From a virus: a stretch of DNA of 20,118 bases. The translations under genes were made by a program, and so were the position numbers. The notes beneath the pieces were generated by a model. That model saw only the letters and a program-made list of their open reading frames with translations. It was not told the DNA's origin and searched no databases. Each line of letters opens with the position of its first letter. The stretch's first letter is position 1. Location of the stretch: the IMG/VR virus record IMGVR_UViG_3300017772_000184, positions 1 through 20,118 of that record; one strand, written 5' to 3'. Shown one piece after another: positions 7,044 to 20,074 of the stretch.

Positions 7044-8561
7044 ATGGCAAAAGAGGTAGTAAATATAGACGTACAGGTCCAAACTAAATCCGTAGGTGAG
7101 TTAGAAACTGAATTAGCTAAAATTAACGAAGAGTTAAAACAAGTTAAGATAGGTAGTCAAGCTTTTAAAGACTTATCTGCAGATTCTCAAAAACTTACAG
7201 CAGAGTTAGAGACCGTAAATAGAGAGATCGAAGGATTTACTTTAGATAAGAAGATTGAAACATCTCAAGCAGCTGTATTAGGTTTAGCTGGAGGATTAGA
7301 AGCTACTGTAGGTACTTTAGGTCTATTAGGAGTAGAGTCAGAGGTATTCGGTAAGTTTGAAGAAAAAGCTATATCAGCATTAACTGCAGCAAGAGGATTT
7401 ATAGATCTATCAGAAGGGTTTGGTAAATTAGCTAAGAATATATCTTTTGCAACTATAAAGTCTAAGATATTCGGTATAACAACTAAACAAGCTTTAATTG
7501 CAACAGGTATAGGTGTATTTGCAGTAGCGTTAGGTAGTATTGTAGCTTACTGGGATGATATTATAAAAGGAGTAGATAAAGCAGCTAAGAAGTTTCCTTT
7601 ACTTGGAATTATAATTACTAAGATAGAAAACGGCTTCAATACTCTTATAGAGTCAATGAGACCGGTACTAGAGTTCTTTGGTATCTTACCAGATGCAGCA
7701 GAGAGAGCTAACAATAAGATTATAGAAGGTAATGAAGAATTAATTTCTTCTAATAAAAAGACTATAGATATACTAAAAGCAAGAGGAGCTACTCAAGAAG
7801 AGATTTATGCTAAACAAGAAGAGCTCTTAATGGCTGAGTTAGATAACCTTAAAAGAACTGATGCTGAAGCTGAAGATATAGAATCTAAAGCTCATGAATT
7901 AACTCTACTTAGAATAGCAGAAGAAACAAGAAAAAGAAAAGAAGCATTTGACGAAAGATTAAAACAAATTCAGTTAAGTGAAACTTTAGAGAAAGAAAGA
8001 GTAGAATTAGAAAAGGAATGGTTTGCTAACTTTGGTGATGAAGCTGCTATGTCGTTTGTAGAGGCATTTGATAAGACTGTAGAAGAAGAGTTTGAACCAG
8101 AATTTATTGACGAAGATTTCGATGACGTAATGGATGGGTTACTAGGAGAAGATGGTGTAGTAACTAAATTTAGAAAAGGATTAGATGATGCATTACAGCA
8201 AACTTTAGCTAATAAAGATAATTGGAATAACTTTTTTGATTTAGCCAATCAAGCATTTGGTAACATAGAGATGTTATCTCAACAGAAGTACGAAAGAACG
8301 TTACTTAACTTACAAAGAGAGAGAGATGAGATAATAAATAATACTAGTCTTACAGAGCAAGAAAGAGCAGCAGCATTAGAAAGAATAGAAAAGAAAGAAA
8401 AAGAAACAGAGATAAGAAGAATAAAAGCAGAAAGAGATCAATTTACTCTTAAACAAACCTTAGCAGGATTAGAAGCTATAATGAATGCTAAGATGTTTGC
8501 TATAGAAATGGTACAGATAGCTAAGAAACAAGTAGCTAATGCTACAGCAACAGCACAATAA
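7044..8561 (+). CDS. Tape measure protein, main part (ends at an in-frame TAA)
   Basis: 505 residues. It begins with a coiled coil (LETELAKINEELKQ, ~20-63), followed by an Ala/Gly/Leu-rich segment with LGLLGVESEVFGK (~93-104) that resembles Bacteroidota phage tape measures. A hydrophobic, probably membrane-active segment lies at ~149-170 (LIATGIGVFAVALGSIVAYW). Long charged helices then run to the end (~225-335 and ~400-480). The role is to set tail length and assist DNA entry. The TAA at 8559-8561 is followed in the same frame by 13 sense codons and then the 109-residue ORF at 8601-8930, which looks like the missing C-terminus. The upstream leader 7017-7043 is A/T only apart from one C and has no Shine-Dalgarno. 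It is short for a tape measure; the joined protein would be about 628 residues. Confidence 0.72.
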   Translation: MAKEVVNIDVQVQTKSVGELETELAKINEELKQVKIGSQAFKDLSADSQKLTAELETVNREIEGFTLDKKIETSQAAVLGLAGGLEATVGTLGLLGVESEVFGKFEEKAISALTAARGFIDLSEGFGKLAKNISFATIKSKIFGITTKQALIATGIGVFAVALGSIVAYWDDIIKGVDKAAKKFPLLGIIITKIENGFNTLIESMRPVLEFFGILPDAAERANNKIIEGNEELISSNKKTIDILKARGATQEEIYAKQEELLMAELDNLKRTDAEAEDIESKAHELTLLRIAEETRKRKEAFDERLKQIQLSETLEKERVELEKEWFANFGDEAAMSFVEAFDKTVEEEFEPEFIDEDFDDVMDGLLGEDGVVTKFRKGLDDALQQTLANKDNWNNFFDLANQAFGNIEMLSQQKYERTLLNLQRERDEIINNTSLTEQERAAALERIEKKEKETEIRRIKAERDQFTLKQTLAGLEAIMNAKMFAIEMVQIAKKQVANATATAQ

Positions 8562-8600
8562 ATAGCTTTATCCGGTATTGCCGCTACTGGTAAAGCCTCT

Positions 8601-8930
8601 ATGTCCTTAGGAGCCTTTGTAGCTGCATTAGGACCTTTTGGTATTGCTGCATTTGCTGCTACTATTGGAGGGGTAATTGCAAGTATTATATCTGCAAGAA
8701 AGAATGCTAAGTCACAAATAGCCGCTATAAGCGGTGGTGCCGGAGGTGGTGGCGGAGGCGGAGTACAAGTAGGATCTGCTCCATCACAAGGATTAGCTAA
8801 TTTAGAAGATACATCAGCACCTCAATTTTCAGGAGCACAACCTGCAATAAGAACATATGTATTATCAGGAGATGTAACCTCTGCACAAGAGGCTGATAGT
8901 AAAATAAATAAAAGAAGAACGGTAGGATAA
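8601..8930 (+). CDS. C-terminal part of tape measure protein, separated by an in-frame stop
   Basis: 109 residues from ATG at 8601, in the same frame as the tape measure gene; the 13 codons 8562-8600 upstream are also open. It has a hydrophobic segment (FVAALGPFGIAAFAATIGGVIASIIS), a poly-Gly linker, and a tail ending IRTYVLSGDVTSAQEADSKINKR. Bacteroidota phage tape measures typically end in exactly this order: a hydrophobic Ala/Gly segment, a Gly-rich linker, and (A/T)YV(V/L)S.DVT.AQ..D. It is therefore read as the end of the tape measure. Whether it is made by re-initiation at 8601, by read-through, or not at all cannot be told. The codons just after the stop use more GCC/TCC than the neighbouring DNA. 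Confidence 0.65.
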   Translation: MSLGAFVAALGPFGIAAFAATIGGVIASIISARKNAKSQIAAISGGAGGGGGGGVQVGSAPSQGLANLEDTSAPQFSGAQPAIRTYVLSGDVTSAQEADSKINKRRTVG

Positions 8931-8940
8931 AATTTATATT

Positions 8941-10872
8941 ATGAGGATAATCGAATTATTAATAGACAAGTTAGAAGAGTTTAATGGGTTTGATGCAGTA
9001 GCATTAGTAGAAGAACCAGCTATAGAATTAGATTTCTTTGCTTTTAACAATAAAGAAGTATTAGATACAATTAAGTTTGAAGTACTAAAACTTGCAATGA
9101 AAGAAAAATTTGTAGAAAGACTACCCGGAGAAGGTAAAGATAGCTACATAGCAAGATGTATACCGGTACTAAAGTCAGAAGGATACGGTGACGATCAAGC
9201 AGCAGCTATATGTTATGATGCTTTAAAACTAGATAGTCACGAAGAATACGAGCATAAAACTCTTTATGTCTCTGTAGTTAAAACAGACGATGGTAAAAAG
9301 TATGTTATAGACGATACGTTACTACCAGAGTTACACTTAGAGAGAGGTAAGAAATACTGTATCGATCAATGTGATGAGTCAAATCAAGACCATCCTATGA
9401 GATTATCTATAACTCCTGACGGTATACATAACGGAGGTAAAGCTTATTTAGGTCAAGGAACTGACGAAGTAGAGTATCAATTAGATAAAATACATTTCTG
9501 TCCTAAAACATCTACACCAGAAGTACTTTATTATTACTGTGTTAATCATCCAGGAATGGGAGGTAGATTTGTAATGGTACAAAAAGAAATGGACTTAGAT
9601 ATAGATGTATCTAGTCTACCAGATTATGCTAACCCTTTAGAAGACCAAGAATATGAATTTGAATCCTTTAATGACTATCCTGAATCTGCCACTAATGCCG
9701 CTAAAAGAGCCCTTAAGTGGAGAGAAGATCATCCAGACAATGATTGCGGGACCCGTGTGGGATGGGCCAGAGCTAATCAGCTTGCTGACAGACGAAACAT
9801 ATCAGAAGATACTATTGCAAGAATGGCTTCGTTTGCTAGACATTTACAATACGAAGATGTCCCATACTCAGAGGGATGCGGAGGTCTTATGGTTGATGCT
9901 TGGGGAGGACGTGCCGGAATAGAATGGGCTAAAAATAAGCTAGAAAGAATAAGAGCAAGTAAGGTGTCTCTCTCTAATGAAAGTATTATAGAAAGTCTAC
10001 CTATAGAAGAACAAGAGAACATCTTTAAGACACTATCAGATAGAGGGATTAACGAAGCTAAGTTAGGTAAAGATGGCTATGAAAGAGTAGAACCAGAAGA
10101 ATTCTTTAAAAACGTATTTACTTCTGCAACTACAGGACTACCAATAAAGGGAGATGCTAAACAAGCAGATGCTATAACTACAAAAGGTGCTAAGGTATTA
10201 TACGAATACGTAGGGCCATTAGATGAAAAGACTAGAAAGTTTTGTAGAAGAATGTTATCATTAAGTAAAAAAGGTACTTTATGGTCTAAAGCAGACTTAC
10301 AAAACATACAAGGTAGTAACCCAGAGTTTCCACAATACTATAATATATTTCTATACAAAGGGTCTTATGGTTGTAGACATTCTTGGAAAGCAGTTTATCT
10401 ATACCAAAAGAAACCTAAGAAAGCTAAAGTTACTGTAACGTTTATGCAGAAAGCTGAGTTAGCTTCTAAAGAGTTTAAGTTTGGATTAAACGAAGATAAG
10501 AAAAGAGTAGTAGGTCCAATGCTTGTTCCTAATAAACTTATAATGAGAATGGATGCTGAAGGTAATCCTTTTTATGTATATTTTAGTGAAGATACAGTAA
10601 GATCTATAGCTGAAAAAGCAATTAAAGAAAAACTAATAGATATAGTTAACTTAGAACACAATCCAGATATGCCAGTAAAGGCACATATGACTAGTAGTTG
10701 GATAAAAGAATCAGATGACGATAAATCTAGTATGTATGGTTTAAACGTACCTATGGGTACTTGGATGGCAGAGTATAAGATAGAAGACGATAACGTATGG
10801 CAGATGATTAAGGATGGAGTTATTAACGGGTTTAGTATAGAAGGTTTCTTTCAAAATAAAAAGATACAATAA
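8941..10872 (+). CDS. Composite capsid protein: XkdF-like prohead protease with cupredoxin and Mu gpF-like modules
   Basis: 643 residues with at least five segments. ~1-36 (IIELLIDK, GFDAVALVEEPAIELDFFAF) is the start typical of XkdF-type proteins. ~55-97 holds KFVERLPGEGKDSYIARCIP and DDQAAAIC, a short phage motif. ~105-216 is cupredoxin-like with YYYCVNHPGMGG. ~241-338 has NDYPESATNAAKRALKW, CGTRVGWARANQLA and PYSEGCGGLMVDAWGG. ~345-490 resembles the C-terminal part of Mu gpF head-morphogenesis proteins (YEYVGPLDEKTRKFCRRML ... GCRHSW). ~513-637 is the XkdF-like protease domain (VVGPMLVPN, YVYFSEDTVRSIAEK, LEHNPDMPVKAH, MGTWMAEYKI, NGFSIEGFF), with His573 and Ser585/Ser586 as candidate catalytic residues. 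It probably joins the procapsid, cleaves scaffold and capsid precursors, and brings a minor head protein in the same chain. It lies directly upstream of the small membrane protein and the scaffold gene. Confidence 0.75.
   Translation: MRIIELLIDKLEEFNGFDAVALVEEPAIELDFFAFNNKEVLDTIKFEVLKLAMKEKFVERLPGEGKDSYIARCIPVLKSEGYGDDQAAAICYDALKLDSHEEYEHKTLYVSVVKTDDGKKYVIDDTLLPELHLERGKKYCIDQCDESNQDHPMRLSITPDGIHNGGKAYLGQGTDEVEYQLDKIHFCPKTSTPEVLYYYCVNHPGMGGRFVMVQKEMDLDIDVSSLPDYANPLEDQEYEFESFNDYPESATNAAKRALKWREDHPDNDCGTRVGWARANQLADRRNISEDTIARMASFARHLQYEDVPYSEGCGGLMVDAWGGRAGIEWAKNKLERIRASKVSLSNESIIESLPIEEQENIFKTLSDRGINEAKLGKDGYERVEPEEFFKNVFTSATTGLPIKGDAKQADAITTKGAKVLYEYVGPLDEKTRKFCRRMLSLSKKGTLWSKADLQNIQGSNPEFPQYYNIFLYKGSYGCRHSWKAVYLYQKKPKKAKVTVTFMQKAELASKEFKFGLNEDKKRVVGPMLVPNKLIMRMDAEGNPFYVYFSEDTVRSIAEKAIKEKLIDIVNLEHNPDMPVKAHMTSSWIKESDDDKSSMYGLNVPMGTWMAEYKIEDDNVWQMIKDGVINGFSIEGFFQNKKIQ
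9253..9588 (+). other. Cupredoxin-like module inserted in the capsid protease
   Basis: Residues ~105-216: TLYVSVVKTDDGKKYVIDD, LHLERGKKYCIDQ, NQDHPMRLS, then YYYCVNHPGMGG and RFVMVQ. This is the plastocyanin-like beta-sandwich seen in many marine phage virion proteins. Cys200, His203 and Met206 form a C-x2-H-x2-M set, and His151 could be the fourth ligand, as in type-1 copper sites. Whether metal is bound is inference. Confidence 0.65.
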
Positions 10873-10877
10873 TAATA

Positions 10878-10885
10878 TATAAATA
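10878..10885 (+). promoter_or_regulatory. TATAAATA motif upstream of the small membrane protein gene
   Basis: An exact TATAAATA lies 11 bases before the ATG at 10897, in a gap made almost only of A and T. The motif equals the T4-type late promoter core, but no late sigma factor is visible and such words arise by chance in DNA this AT-rich. Given as a weak candidate only. Confidence 0.15.
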
Positions 10886-10896
10886 TATATAGATAT

Positions 10897-11058
10897 ATGG
10901 AACTAAGTAACTTTCAAACAGGTGGAATAGGTTTTATGAGCTCAAGCGTAGTATCATTTATGCATCTACAAGACGTACTAATTGCCTTTTTATTAGGGTT
11001 TGTTGGTGCTATGGGTGCTTGGCTATTTAAATTTATAGTGGAAAAGCTTACAAAATAA
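10897..11058 (+). CDS. Small membrane protein, 53 residues, unknown function
   Basis: ATG at 10897 to TAA at 11056-11058. The N-terminal half is polar (MELSNFQTGGIGFMSSS). The second half is one strong hydrophobic helix, DVLIAFLLGFVGAMGAWLFKF (residues ~26-46 in two stretches), followed by a short basic tail (IVEKLTK). This gives a single-pass membrane protein with a probably cytoplasmic basic C-terminus. It sits between the protease and scaffold genes on the same strand, 24 bases after the protease stop. I do not recognise the family. A holin-like or membrane-bound head-assembly role is possible, but nothing in the sequence decides. The start is supported by the shared A/T-rich leader type and by the lack of any other frame covering the region. 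Confidence 0.6.
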   Translation: MELSNFQTGGIGFMSSSVVSFMHLQDVLIAFLLGFVGAMGAWLFKFIVEKLTK

Positions 11059-11147
11059 CGTGTCTCTCCTATTATTTTTGAATAGTTATATATAAGCCTA
11101 TTTATTACTATAGAAAAGACACTTAACTAACTTAAAAATTCAATATT
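11059..11147 (+). promoter_or_regulatory. Leader/possible promoter region before scaffold-capsid-tube genes
   Basis: An 89-bp non-coding gap, the largest in the window. TTTG at 11077-11080 and TATTTATT starting at 11099 are spaced roughly as in Bacteroidota promoters (TTTG and TAnnTTTG), but the second element is a poor match. The gap can also fold: GTGTCT (11060-11065) pairs with AGACAC (11117-11122), enclosing CTATT/AATAG (11069-11073/11081-11085) and CTAT/ATAG (11098-11101/11110-11113). It is a candidate promoter plus structured leader for the capsid unit; weakly supported. Confidence 0.3.
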
Positions 11148-11885
11148 GTGAAAAAAGAAGAATTAAAGGACTTAGTGAAAGGCTATTTCAATCTAACAGA
11201 CAAACAAGACGAAATCAAAGAATCAAAAGAAATTACTAAAGAAGCATTTGCATCAGGAGAGTTAATTGACGGAACTAAAGTCAATAACGGATCTGATAAA
11301 GATCTTGAAGTTGGTGATAGCTTATTCGTAGAAACTGAAGCTGGTGAAACAGTAGATGCTCCTTCTGGAGAACACGAGATGAAAGATGGTACTGTTGTTG
11401 TTGTAGATGGAGAAGGCAAAATAACAGGTCTACACAAAGACGGTGAAACCGGTCAAGGATCTCTTGCAGAAGAGTTACCAGATTCAGGTCCTGCTAAAAT
11501 CTTAAACGAGAAAGACGAAATGTCAGAAGTTAAAGAAGAAGTAGCACTTGCTGACGCAATCGAAGAATCAGGTGATTTACCAATGGCAGAACATAGCGAC
11601 GACGAAGAAGCTATGGCACACCATGAAATGAAAGAAGAGATTATCGAAGCTATCATGGAAGTAGTATCTCCTATGATGGATGAGATGAAAAAGAAACTAG
11701 AAGAGCACGAAGAAAAAATGAAAGAACATTATTCTTCAGCAGCTAGTGATTCAGTAACTGAAAAAGCTTTTAGTAAAGCTGGATTTGGTTCAAAGCCAGA
11801 AGGAGAAGTATTAAACTTTTCTAATGGTGATTTAAAAGCTATGCAATACGCTAACGTATTAAGTAGAGCTTCAAAAAACAATTAA
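11148..11885 (+). CDS. Head scaffolding protein (probable)
   Basis: 245 residues, strongly acidic, from GTG at 11148 (MKKEELKDLVKGYF after initiation). Residues ~38-97 are a compact Gly/Val/Asp-rich beta region (IDGTKV, LEVGDSLFVETEAGETVDAP, GEHEMKDGTVVVVDGEGKIT). I associate this pattern with scaffold-position proteins in Bacteroidota phages. The remainder is acidic helix (MKEEIIEAIMEVVSPMMDEM, MKKKLEEHEEKMKEHY), a likely coiled-coil dimer, and then a short C-terminal tail with basic residues. Position directly upstream of the major capsid gene, size, acidity and coiled coil fit a scaffold that fills the procapsid and is removed by the XkdF-like protease encoded just upstream. A GTG start is chosen because no ATG precedes it in frame near the leader and the N-terminus is a good helix. 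No Cys or enzyme motif is seen. Confidence 0.62.
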   Translation: MKKEELKDLVKGYFNLTDKQDEIKESKEITKEAFASGELIDGTKVNNGSDKDLEVGDSLFVETEAGETVDAPSGEHEMKDGTVVVVDGEGKITGLHKDGETGQGSLAEELPDSGPAKILNEKDEMSEVKEEVALADAIEESGDLPMAEHSDDEEAMAHHEMKEEIIEAIMEVVSPMMDEMKKKLEEHEEKMKEHYSSAASDSVTEKAFSKAGFGSKPEGEVLNFSNGDLKAMQYANVLSRASKNN

Positions 11886-11911: not shown

Positions 11912-12808
11912 ATGGCATTAGATGTATCTGCATTATCAGACTTCAATAACGAAGTAGCAGGAAAAGTCGTTCCTAAGATTGTATTTGAAGGATATACTAC
12001 TTCAATACTACCAATCCAGGAAGGTATTAAATACCAAGAGCCGTTAAACATATTCGAAGTTGATTTACAAATCCAAGCCGGAGATTGTGTTTCAAATGCT
12101 TCAGGATCTTTTGACGCGACTCAAAGAACAATTACAGTTACTCAAAGAACTTCTTACGATGGGCTTTGTTTAGACAACCTAAATCCAAAGTACTTAGGTA
12201 TTTCGGCTTTAGATAGAGGATCGTACAACGAGACTTTCAAATTAGCTTCTATATACACGGAGCAAATCGTTAACCAAATGAAAAAAGCAGATGATGCTTT
12301 CCTATGGGGTGCAGGTCAATTCGGAACCTTTACTTCAGCATCTACAGCAGGAGTAGTAATTCCTGATGCAGCTACAGGATCAGTATCTTCAGCTACAATT
12401 CTTGGGATCACTGACGCAATGATAGAAAACTTATCTGACGATGTAGCAGATAGAGATGATTTAACTATCTGGATGTCTGTATCTAACTTTAGAAAATTCA
12501 TTACAGCGTTAAGAGGAATTAACAACTATTACTTCGACCCAAGCTCTATTTCTAATAGAACTGGTATCTTACAAATAGCTTATCCATTCCAAAATGTAAA
12601 AGTAGTAGGAACAAGTGGTATCTCTGGAGACAGAATCGCACTTATGCCTGATGCTTATGCAGTAGTAGGAGTAGATCTATTGAGTGACGTTGAAAACTTC
12701 CAACTTTGGTATGATATTAATGCAGACCAATTAAAACATAGATTAAAATCTAAGTTAGGTTCGCAAGTAGCGTTCCCAGAGTACATCGTTTCTAACGGAT
12801 TAAACTAA
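11912..12808 (+). CDS. Major capsid protein
   Basis: 298 residues. It resembles a Bacteroidota phage major capsid family: an N-terminal helix-strand (FNNEVAGKVVPKIVFEG), a Cys-containing loop (QAGDCVSNASGSFDATQRTI followed by TVTQ), GLCLDNLNPKYL, a long helix ending MKKADDAFLWGA, then SNFRKFITAL and a C-terminal part FQLWYDINADQLKHRLK. The HK97 fold is inferred. There is no N-terminal delta region, in keeping with a separate scaffold gene upstream. The gene follows the scaffold by 26 A/T-rich bases (AAAAATTATGGCA start) and is followed by a strong hairpin. Of its 24 Ile codons only five are ATA (nine ATC, ten ATT), unlike neighbouring tail genes, where ATA dominates; this fits high expression. 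Two Cys residues near the N-terminal loop (in GDC and GLC) could cross-link if oxidised. Confidence 0.8.
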   Translation: MALDVSALSDFNNEVAGKVVPKIVFEGYTTSILPIQEGIKYQEPLNIFEVDLQIQAGDCVSNASGSFDATQRTITVTQRTSYDGLCLDNLNPKYLGISALDRGSYNETFKLASIYTEQIVNQMKKADDAFLWGAGQFGTFTSASTAGVVIPDAATGSVSSATILGITDAMIENLSDDVADRDDLTIWMSVSNFRKFITALRGINNYYFDPSSISNRTGILQIAYPFQNVKVVGTSGISGDRIALMPDAYAVVGVDLLSDVENFQLWYDINADQLKHRLKSKLGSQVAFPEYIVSNGLN

Positions 12809-13940: not shown

Positions 13941-15155
13941 ATGGCAAAGAATAAAAATAAAATGCATTTCGCCAAAGTAGAAAGGTTTAACTCAGAGCAA
14001 GTAAACTTTCAAGAGAAGATACAAGGCAAATATGTAAAGAGTGGTAACGATAATAGGTTTCCACAATATCTTATAGACTTATACAACAGATCAGCAATAC
14101 ATGCTGCTTGTGTAGATTCTATTGTCCATGGAGTTATAGGACAAGGGTTAACAGCAAACGATGAGCTTTTTTTAGAGCATGCAAATAGTAGAGGAGAAAC
14201 ATGGAATGATATCTTTAAGAAAATATCTTTAGATTATATCTTACACGGTAGCTTTGCTTTAGAAGTTATCTACAGTAGAGATAGAACTAAAATAGCAGAA
14301 GCATATCATATTGACTTTTCAACTCTTAGAGCTAAAGAAAAAAACCATAGAGGAATTATTCCTGGATACTATATTTCTAACGAATGGAAAGTATTTACTG
14401 CTCATACAGACGATAATACAATGTATCTTCCAGTATTTAATACTAAGAAAGCAAGAGATGAAGCTTCTCAAATCTTTGTCGTACACAACTACAGACCAGG
14501 TCAACAGTACTATCCGTTACCTTCTTATAATGGAGCCCTTAGAACCATTGAGTTAGACGTAGAAATAGATAATTTCCATGTTAATAACATAAAGAATGGC
14601 TTAGCACCAAGTTTAGCTATAACAACTTATACAAATGGAGCTAATGACGATGTAGAGTCTATAGAGGCTATGTTAAGGTCTAACTATGGCGGAACTGATA
14701 ATGCTGGTTCATTAATATATATGGATGTAGATAGTCCAGAAAATAAACCAGATATAACACCAATACCTCAGAATGGAGCTGATGGTTATTATACTGCGAT
14801 TAACGATATGTCTATTCAGCAGATACTAACAGCACATAGAGTTACAAGTCCTATGTTATTAGGAATAAAAACAGAAGGTCAGTTAGGTGGTAGATCAGAA
14901 CTAATAGATGCTAGAATATTATTCGAACATAACGTTATTGAACCATTCCAGCAACAAATATTAAGACAATTAGAGGGTATTATGCAAGTTAATTACCCAG
15001 ACATAGTCTTAGGAGTAGAAACTCAAACTTTATATGAAGATGGAGAAGTAGAAGAAGATGTAGTAACTTCAGTAGAGGTAACTGACTCAGAAGCTGAACA
15101 AGTAGAGAGATCAGACGAAACTAACGTAGAAGACGTACCAAGAAATTTAGAATAA
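13941..15155 (+). CDS. Portal protein
   Basis: 404 residues. Portal-like features are the N-terminal FPQYLIDLYNRSAIHAACVDSI, the wing/stem region (SLDYILHGSFALEVIY, HIDFSTLRA), the stem helix EIDNFHVNNIKNGLAPS, and the conserved clip/crown part INDMSIQQILTAHRVTSPML followed by LGIKTEGQLGGRSE and a helix FEHNVIEPFQQQILRQLE. The last ~50 residues are acidic and probably disordered. It would form the dodecameric DNA gate, bind terminase and the head-tail connector encoded next, and nucleate procapsid assembly. It is near the short end for HK97/SPP1-type portals. It begins AATAATTATGGCA, two bases after the preceding stop, and ends four bases before the connector gene. Finding the portal after the capsid and tube genes is unusual. 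Confidence 0.85.
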   Translation: MAKNKNKMHFAKVERFNSEQVNFQEKIQGKYVKSGNDNRFPQYLIDLYNRSAIHAACVDSIVHGVIGQGLTANDELFLEHANSRGETWNDIFKKISLDYILHGSFALEVIYSRDRTKIAEAYHIDFSTLRAKEKNHRGIIPGYYISNEWKVFTAHTDDNTMYLPVFNTKKARDEASQIFVVHNYRPGQQYYPLPSYNGALRTIELDVEIDNFHVNNIKNGLAPSLAITTYTNGANDDVESIEAMLRSNYGGTDNAGSLIYMDVDSPENKPDITPIPQNGADGYYTAINDMSIQQILTAHRVTSPMLLGIKTEGQLGGRSELIDARILFEHNVIEPFQQQILRQLEGIMQVNYPDIVLGVETQTLYEDGEVEEDVVTSVEVTDSEAEQVERSDETNVEDVPRNLE

Positions 15156-18410: not shown

Positions 18411-19310
18411 ATGTTAATTAAACCTTTTGGCTTTGCAGGAGCAGGTGGAGTAAGTGAATGGGACCCTACTCTTGATGGAGATCTTACAATAAATTATTGG
18501 TATGATTTTACCTCTAACGATTATGTAACGTTAAGTGGTAGTTCAACTAATGTATTAGATATACTTCCTAGACAAAAGCCAGCAGGAGAAACAGGTGAAG
18601 GTAGATTACATGATGCTTCTGGTACTTCTAAAGGGTATACTAACCCGGTAGAGTGGAATACTAATTTTAACATAGACTGTATAAACATAAATAATGCTGC
18701 ATTATTCTCAGGTAGTGATTCTTTAAACTTAAACTGGATACCAAGTGGTAGTACAAATAACGATGAATGGTCGGCTGTATGTATAACTGCTACTGATGAT
18801 TGGCAGGATAGAGGTACTACAAATAGTATTGCAGCATGGAATATAACAGCTACTGGAGATGGTTATGATAGTTTAAACTTATTTATAAATAAAAACGGTG
18901 GTTTAGGTAGTAGTTGTAGTGGGAGTGGTGACTTCGATGTTGCTTATGGTAACTACAACGGTTCGAATTGGAACGATACAAGATTTCAAAACATGACTGC
19001 TAATCCTTCTGGTTCAAGTGGTGAAGGTTATGTACCTAATATGTATAGTACAACCTTTAGCGGTGATAGTAATCCAGCAGATGCAAGTTTTACTGTTAAC
19101 AATCGTGACGAATGTAGTGGTTTATCTTTTACTAAAGCTTCAGGTAATAGTTGCGGTTTATGTATCGCTGCAGCTCCTACGTTTACAAGTGCAAATAGTT
19201 ACAACGGTAGGTATTGGCATTTCATTACTTATAAAGGTATTCTTACAGAAGCGCAGATGAAAAGTTTATACGATACTTGGAGAGAGCATTATTTAGCTTT
19301 AGCACCATAG
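18411..19310 (+). CDS. Lectin-like (ConA/LamG-type) adhesin
   Basis: 299 residues. After a short Gly-rich start (FGFAGAGGVSEWDPTLDGDL) comes INYWYDFTSNDYVTLSGSST, a long Ser/Asn/Gly-rich beta region with six to seven Cys, and a C-terminal YWHFITYKGILTEAQMKSLY followed by DTWREHYLALAP. The entry and exit match the C-terminal domain of the tail-tip protein at 749-3784, so both are read as ConA/LamG-like carbohydrate-binding domains. It probably caps the fibre or tail as a receptor-binding or chaperone protein, since it follows the fibre gene by six bases on the same strand. Cys pairs (GSSCSGSGD, NRDECSGLS, NSCGLCIAA) could stabilise it outside the cell. Its 3' end overlaps the opposite-strand glycosyltransferase gene by 22 bases. 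Confidence 0.65.
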   Translation: MLIKPFGFAGAGGVSEWDPTLDGDLTINYWYDFTSNDYVTLSGSSTNVLDILPRQKPAGETGEGRLHDASGTSKGYTNPVEWNTNFNIDCININNAALFSGSDSLNLNWIPSGSTNNDEWSAVCITATDDWQDRGTTNSIAAWNITATGDGYDSLNLFINKNGGLGSSCSGSGDFDVAYGNYNGSNWNDTRFQNMTANPSGSSGEGYVPNMYSTTFSGDSNPADASFTVNNRDECSGLSFTKASGNSCGLCIAAAPTFTSANSYNGRYWHFITYKGILTEAQMKSLYDTWREHYLALAP

Positions 19311-20074
19311 TTATCTTTATAACGTAACCAAACATCTCTCATTATTCTAGTCCTATCTTCTATAGGAAAGCCAGTAAAGTGCCATATAAAAGCATACTTA
19401 ATAAAGAACGGTGTAGGATCTTCGTTTAACTGCCAATTGTGTTTAAACATATCTTTTTTATGTATAGAGAATAAGTTCCAAGTAGGAGGCAGATATTTTA
19501 TTTTTACTTTATTTAGTTTCAGTACATAGTTAAGAACGGTTTGTACTTTACCAACACCTTTTATTAGATCTAAGTCTTTACCATAATGTAAGTATAATCC
19601 TTGTAACTCATCAAAAATATACTTATGCTCTTTAGTAAAGAAACATACACCGGAGTTAAAATAGTTATCTAAAATAAAGTCATCAGTAGCTGCTTTAGGA
19701 AAAAAAGGTTTATAAGCATCTAAAGATCTAAGAATCCATCCTATACTAGCTCTATCGTTTACTACACAGAATTCATCTGTATATAAGTCAAAAGGATTAG
19801 GTGCATCCCATTTAACCATAGTATCTGAGTCAACGTATATAATCTTATCGTACTTATCTCCTACGTAATCAAATATAAGATCTTTAGCCCATACAGGGTA
19901 TTTATAATCATTGTTAACTGTAGGACCAGTCATTTTATCAATAACTAAAAAGTCTATATCCATCTTCTTACACCAAGCAGTCCAAGAATTTATACAGTAT
20001 TGACTATACTCAGAGTTGTTAAACTGAGAAGTATCACTGTTGATTGCAGTAGTATATATTAGATTTTTACTCAT
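19289..20074 (-). CDS. GT8-like glycosyltransferase (GT-A fold)
   Basis: 261 residues on the minus strand. The order of features fits the GT8-like GT-A fold. An N-terminal strand (NLIYTTAINSD) comes first, then YPVWAKDLIFDYV, the acidic metal/nucleotide-sugar motif IIYVDSDTMVKWD (Asp82-x-Asp84), YFNSGVCFF (~138-146), and IWHFTGFPIED (~230-240), comparable to the HF.G segment of GT8 enzymes. No signal peptide or membrane helix is seen, so it acts in the cytoplasm on a sugar nucleotide donor. The acceptor is unknown: host surface glycan, phage DNA base or virion protein are all possible. It is the only gene on the opposite strand, convergent with and overlapping the adhesin gene, so it is likely expressed from a separate promoter upstream (beyond 20074). 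The start ATG has AAGAG just ahead of it. Confidence 0.75.
   Translation of the reverse strand: MSKNLIYTTAINSDTSQFNNSEYSQYCINSWTAWCKKMDIDFLVIDKMTGPTVNNDYKYPVWAKDLIFDYVGDKYDKIIYVDSDTMVKWDAPNPFDLYTDEFCVVNDRASIGWILRSLDAYKPFFPKAATDDFILDNYFNSGVCFFTKEHKYIFDELQGLYLHYGKDLDLIKGVGKVQTVLNYVLKLNKVKIKYLPPTWNLFSIHKKDMFKHNWQLNEDPTPFFIKYAFIWHFTGFPIEDRTRIMRDVWLRYKDNYGAKAK

Follow-up and report, generated by a model that had tools for sequence, protein, structure and literature searches.

Gene neighbourhood and authenticity of the protease ORF

The window, a 20,118-nt stretch of uncultured marine phage DNA analyzed here computationally, carries a head-maturation protease gene with ∼470 extra amino acids lodged inside the enzyme (Table 1). 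The ORF encodes 643 aa, with an ATG at 8941 and a stop codon ending at 10872. Head proteases are usually treated as compact, scaffold-digesting enzymes. Peptidase_S78_2 (XkdF, PF14550) matched residues 518–636 in Pfam (E 3.3e-14, 53.4 bits versus a cut-off of 24), and the ORF matched phrog_24921 in PHROG (E 3.3e-30). No match was found for the window protease in NCBIfam, for the whole protein in a sequence search against PDB, or for nt 8400–11300 in Rfam.

The gene is part of a head cluster with the order tape measure, protease, scaffold-like gene, major capsid protein (MCP), two small genes, portal and one more small gene. This order recurs in related loci wherever these extend far enough. 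The probable MCP has no Pfam or PHROG match of its own. The portal gene (13941–15155) lies downstream of the MCP gene, as it does in relatives; this departs from the common portal–protease–MCP order. Between the protease and scaffold-like genes is a 53-aa ORF with one hydrophobic stretch (10897–11058), and a similar short ORF follows the protease in relative L024 (8744–8929). A glycosyltransferase family 8-like gene (PF01501, E 1.2e-6) occupies 19289–20074 on the minus strand, opposite to the structural genes.

An ORF of such unusual architecture in an uncultured contig might be a chimera from sequencing, assembly or chance readthrough. But the same architecture, with all modules in the same order, recurs at 80–83% identity in separate contigs (relatives L001 and L002), with reading frames intact and the same genes as neighbours. 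The chimera was therefore rejected, its probability being negligible, and we regard the multi-module architecture of the 643-aa ORF as nearly certain.

Table 1. Features of the protease ORF and neighbouring head genes (nucleotide positions in the window; aa, residues of the protease)
Feature	Position	Strand	Basis
XkdF-type head protease ORF, N-B-Cup-C-F-S78_2	8941..10872	+	ORF, PF14550, phrog_24921, relatives
N element, aa 1–40, first piece of protease	8941..9060	+	Alignment with 24 relatives; 4–19 aa from S78_2 in compact proteins
Module B, Cys module, aa 52–98	9094..9234	+	Other positions in relatives; 51–70 aa ORF
Cupredoxin module, aa 104–214; ligands H151, C200, H203, M206	9250..9582	+	Fold search; ligand conservation
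Linker peptide resembling MCP N-terminus, aa 220–235	9598..9645	+	Pattern and HMM tests
Module C, Cys/Trp-rich, aa 241–341	9661..9963	+	phrog_2859; fusions to four protease types and portals elsewhere
Block aa 342–500 holding module F (core aa about 421–486, 10201–10398), minor-head-protein-like	9964..10440	+	Profile comparison
S78_2 protease domain; putative catalytic His573 (10657–10659), Ser632 (10834–10836)	10474..10854	+	Pfam, conservation
Scaffold-like gene	11148..11885	+	Weak match to phrog_24921 (protease–scaffold fusion family); position
Probable MCP	11912..12808	+	Position; conservation in relatives
Portal protein, 404 aa, without F extension	13941..15155	+	phrog_11226 (E 1.9e-38); PF04860

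The ends of the ORF correspond to one compact protease

Among relatives that have both, the distance between the N element and the S78_2 domain is bimodal: 4–19 residues in 13 compact proteins and 121–542 residues in expanded ones. The compact class includes a protein of the isolated Nonlabens phage P12024L and two from Flavobacteriales metagenome-assembled contigs; additional compact forms with module C behind S78_2 also exist. In P12024L, gp01 (protease–scaffold) has the same N element and S78_2 domain as the window protease. Unlike in the window, the two are nearly contiguous, with a scaffold-like part fused behind. A compact relative modelled with AlphaFold (pTM 0.73) shows a loop of low confidence at residues 29–40, where the window protein has its inserted block. 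This model matched no solved structure in PDB, and a PDB profile search of the S78 domain gave nothing credible. The full-length window model had low overall confidence (pTM 0.32), so only its single-domain features were used.

His573 and Ser632 lie at nearly invariant columns in 31 sequences; their catalytic roles are presumed from knowledge of the family. One XkdF relative (L030:8001–9350) has Asn at the putative catalytic His column (NLENN) and is possibly inactive. An earlier sequence-only reading had proposed that the two ends of the ORF belong to one XkdF protease and that residues 1–36 are related to XkdF N-termini. The latter is clearly so, by alignment with the N element of relatives, and the short spacing in compact relatives bears out the former. 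Together these comparisons argue strongly, at the level of sequence, that the first ∼40 and last ∼130 residues represent the two ends of a single protease.

Module B, the cupredoxin and module C

Module B varies in position: some relatives encode it as a separate ORF of 51–70 aa that closely follows the protease, and in another protease (L041) it is C-terminal. The cupredoxin has no Pfam match. A fold search against PDB ranked pseudoazurin, rusticyanin and amicyanin highest (best E 7.6e-4). The window retains the complete set of type-1 copper ligands (His, Cys, His, Met), with C-x2-H-x2-M spacing, and CxxHxxM is present in 87 of 89 distinct cupredoxin modules. The window cupredoxin is predicted to bind copper. 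Antibody chains, the sole matches in a PDB profile search, were rejected as chance. The same cupredoxin is common in structural and tail-fibre proteins of marine phages. Among related proteases, it is absent in L013 and swapped in L038. In the literature searched, cyanophage combined with cupredoxin returned only work on Borgs. B and the cupredoxin are most likely exchangeable accessories.

Module C matches phrog_2859, a PHROG family of unknown function. Both the cupredoxin and the Cys/Trp-rich module that the first reading had placed in the middle of the protease were recovered, the former by fold search and kept ligands and the latter at aa 241–341. Pfam searches of 30 C-bearing ORFs from outside the family identified Peptidase_S78 (5), CLP_protease (3), Mu-like_Pro (3), two portal families (3 and 2) and Phage_Mu_F (2); both portals and unrelated head proteases are thus repeated partners of C. 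In loci L270, L243, L252, L247 and L289, phrog_2859-like C is fused to ClpP-type or S78 proteases and to two portal families. C is also part of multidomain head proteins of haloviruses, namely the portal–gpF fusion of HRTV-4 (gp30) and the prohead protease of HGTV-1 (gp11). Unlike the window protein, these involve a different protease family, with no XkdF domain and no cupredoxin found. A PDB profile search of C gave nothing credible, and no description of a shared head function was found in the literature consulted. C is most likely a general partner of head proteases and portals.

Module F resembles minor head proteins

Elsewhere, module F occurs at the C-terminus of portals and forms the C-terminal part of separate proteins of 255–340 aa. 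Profile comparison with these stand-alone, minor-head-type proteins gave E 5.6e-24, showing clear homology to their C-terminal part. They sit just after the portal gene; the F-bearing gp30 of Pelagibacter phage HTVC112P, for example, is encoded directly between the portal and scaffold genes.

The relationship to Mu F is less evident. Phage_Mu_F (PF04233) did not match the window protease at E ≤ 1 in Pfam, and stand-alone F relatives matched it at only E 0.006–0.017, below the cut-off. In pairwise profile comparisons with Mu F proteins, F alone gave E 0.02–0.07 and the stand-alone F proteins E 5e-4 to 2.5e-3, at low probability. A PDB profile search of F gave nothing credible. F does share a C-terminal signature (aromatic, D..tR, later G..CR[CH]) with MuF proteins such as Mu gpF (gp30) and SPP1 gp7, yet the window has only the C-terminal part, and its similarity to Mu F is weak at the sequence level. 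The proposal that residues 345–490 are gpF-like holds too, though less clearly than that on the N-terminus. The core at about 421–486 matches minor-head-type proteins and has its relatives on the portal C-terminus or immediately behind the portal gene, as expected of such a protein; in sequence, similarity to Mu F proper is marginal. We describe F as minor-head-protein-like, with a weak family-level link to gpF, rather than as an established MuF member.

A protease linker peptide similar to the MCP N-terminus of the same phage

The linker between the cupredoxin and C reads DIDVSSLPDYANPLED, and the phage's own MCP begins MALDVSALSDFNNEVAGK (11912–11965). Such likeness to the MCP arm is also seen in protease linkers of relatives L033, L041, L062, L063, L068 and L090. 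A pattern derived from such linkers had 20 distinct matches in the collected ORFs, 16 in S78_2 ORFs and 4 in MCP N-termini, with none elsewhere. Because this pattern was devised after the linkers had been seen, an HMM is the fairer test. Built from 35 MCP N-termini, such a model picked out 11 protease linkers at E ≤ 0.1 (best 1.8e-8). The proteases shuffled ten times yielded no match, and a further 1.08 million residues yielded 2, one of which lies in a short ORF on the reverse strand. The window's own linker was found by the pattern and missed by the HMM at E ≤ 0.1. The likeness of the linker peptide to the phage's own capsid N-terminus is new here. The peptide could serve as a docking tag or as a shared cleavage site.

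Modules are exchanged in place among relatives

Two pairs of loci differ by the swap of a single module. L035 and L038 encode closely similar proteases, with the cupredoxin in one and DUF3721 (PF12518) in the other, and DNA on both sides of the swap is 93–96% identical in aligned pieces. L028 and L029 differ by the same swap, with flanks 88–98% identical. A literature search found no paper linking DUF3721 with phage. Across relatives, most of them uncultured fragments, the module orders N-C-F-S78, N-F-C-S78, N-C-B-F-S78, N-S78-F and N-C-S78-B were seen, using module HMMs built from the same loci in which the modules were then counted. Modules are thus lacked, permuted or swapped independently at the same site. 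Some relatives carry DUF5824. In L061 (94–1893), a CDGSH-type iron–sulphur motif (CACGLSQHAGGLCDGSH), identified by eye, ends the protease ORF behind S78_2. In L068 (468–2966), the protease is split over two ORFs. An MCP-arm-like peptide opens the second, which also contains a DUF3721-like stretch and another stretch bearing a HAD-phosphatase-like DYDDTL motif.

Modules of the block also occur on a portal. In L283, B-C-F follows the portal domain in the window's order, and residues 239–493 of the window protease align to this protein in one piece (39% identity, E 1e-47). F was found in the protease in 17 records, with portals of 379–460 aa, and on the portal in 19 records, with portals of 556–692 aa and no F in the protease; many of these records were found through F itself and most are fragments. 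No record that yielded all three of protease, portal and F has F twice. In the window, the record's only F is in the protease; P12024L likewise has F once, on the C-terminus of portal gp06.

One related contig (L007/L009) has ends that overlap by 174 bp at 95% identity, with no exact end repeat, suggesting a near-complete genome of ∼29 kb. It has one S78_2, one portal and one F, which is in the protease. F was not seen in the available sequence of at least 11 relatives, the closest among them; its presence in the protease is therefore not universal. By eye, none of the plus-strand ORFs that separate protease and scaffold in the F-less relatives L021 and L024 was recognized as a stand-alone F. 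Counting only well-placed rows with both genes seen, F moves between protease and portal about once on the protease tree; the number of changes is 6 when all rows are used and 'not seen' is counted as a state. With about one switch on the tree, the either/or pattern reflects few independent events, and a tree test of independent switches had too few pairs for significance. In relatives, these parts occur in the same enzyme, on the portal, in other head proteases or as genes of their own, a distribution suggesting that parts of the forming head are traded as cassettes.

Comparison with other fusions

In the literature searched, XkdF with prohead protease returned isolate descriptions only. A BFVD structure search identified many uncultured XkdF-named proteins of 202–622 aa, called after the protease alone, that match over one or more domains. 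Rhizobium phage DNA methyltransferase/prohead protease fusions, as annotated, also join an XkdF-like domain to another domain, but the partner differs and, as far as seen, nothing is inserted between the N element and S78_2. In the polyvalent proteins and MuF/portal fusions (PMC5512222), as in the window protein, many exchangeable domains occur in one phage chain, there joined to MuF or portal domains. Polyvalent proteins have effector domains, whereas none was recognized in the window protease by Pfam or NCBIfam. The text on polyvalent proteins in PMC5512222 does not mention XkdF.

Role of the inserted block

The phage T4 protease gp21 is located in the core, which it digests, and its own N-terminus blocks it until it has cleaved itself (PMC9958956). 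Taken with the anatomy of the window, this suggests that the inserted block would enter the procapsid with the protease, that F would lie near the portal and that linkers may be cut. We picture an XkdF-type prohead protease with mobile prohead-core modules in the loop between its N element and catalytic domain. Judging from compact relatives, these two pieces would still form one protease, and the modules would ride into the procapsid as part of its chain. F, otherwise on or just after the portal, would sit at the portal vertex and tether the chain there, and the capsid-N-arm-like peptide may dock the chain to shell or scaffold. At maturation, the protease would cut the scaffold and probably also linkers in its own chain. 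This account as a whole, in which fusion to the protease is the means by which prohead-core and portal-vertex modules are delivered, is in our judgement probably correct. More tentatively, the XkdF-type proteases of these phages may be platforms for prohead-core cassettes: F would tether them to the portal vertex and the MCP-arm-like peptide to the shell, and the same loop would take up exchangeable modules, a copper protein among them.

Other functions for the block can be envisaged. The modules could be passengers: effector-like or protective domains that are packaged because they are fused to the protease, are released when it cleaves, and are injected along with the DNA. Packaging and injection have been proposed for polyvalent and MuF-fused multidomain proteins (PMC5512222, PMC5576092), and both the phosphatase-like stretch of L068 (DYDDTL, by eye) and DUF5824 of other relatives would fit such a role. 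No module in the window, however, is a recognized enzyme or toxin, and the ties of C and F to proteases and portals of several families point to head assembly. We consider the passenger role unlikely. It is quite improbable that the block is mainly a control element, keeping the protease inactive or misplaced until assembly and then being cut out. The self-blocking N-terminus of T4 gp21 offers a precedent (PMC9958956), and the peptide common to the linker and the MCP N-terminus could be a shared cleavage or recognition site. But compact relatives have no insert at all, and a dedicated inhibitor would need neither free exchange of modules nor their recurrence outside proteases. The same cupredoxin is common in tail fibres, but it is very unlikely that the virion displays it and the adjoining modules on its exterior in that manner: the prohead interior is where head proteases work, the adjoining C and F are modules of portals and head proteases, and nothing points to an exit to the surface.

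In the window, a protease, a portal-vertex-type module and a capsid-arm-like peptide are joined in a single chain, and close relatives have swapped single modules in place. Module C, recurring with four kinds of head protease and with portals, is a good target for finding a shared prohead function. Family members range from those without an insert through those with one to those with several, a natural series in which to test protease recruitment and location and whether the functions of portal and protease are coupled.
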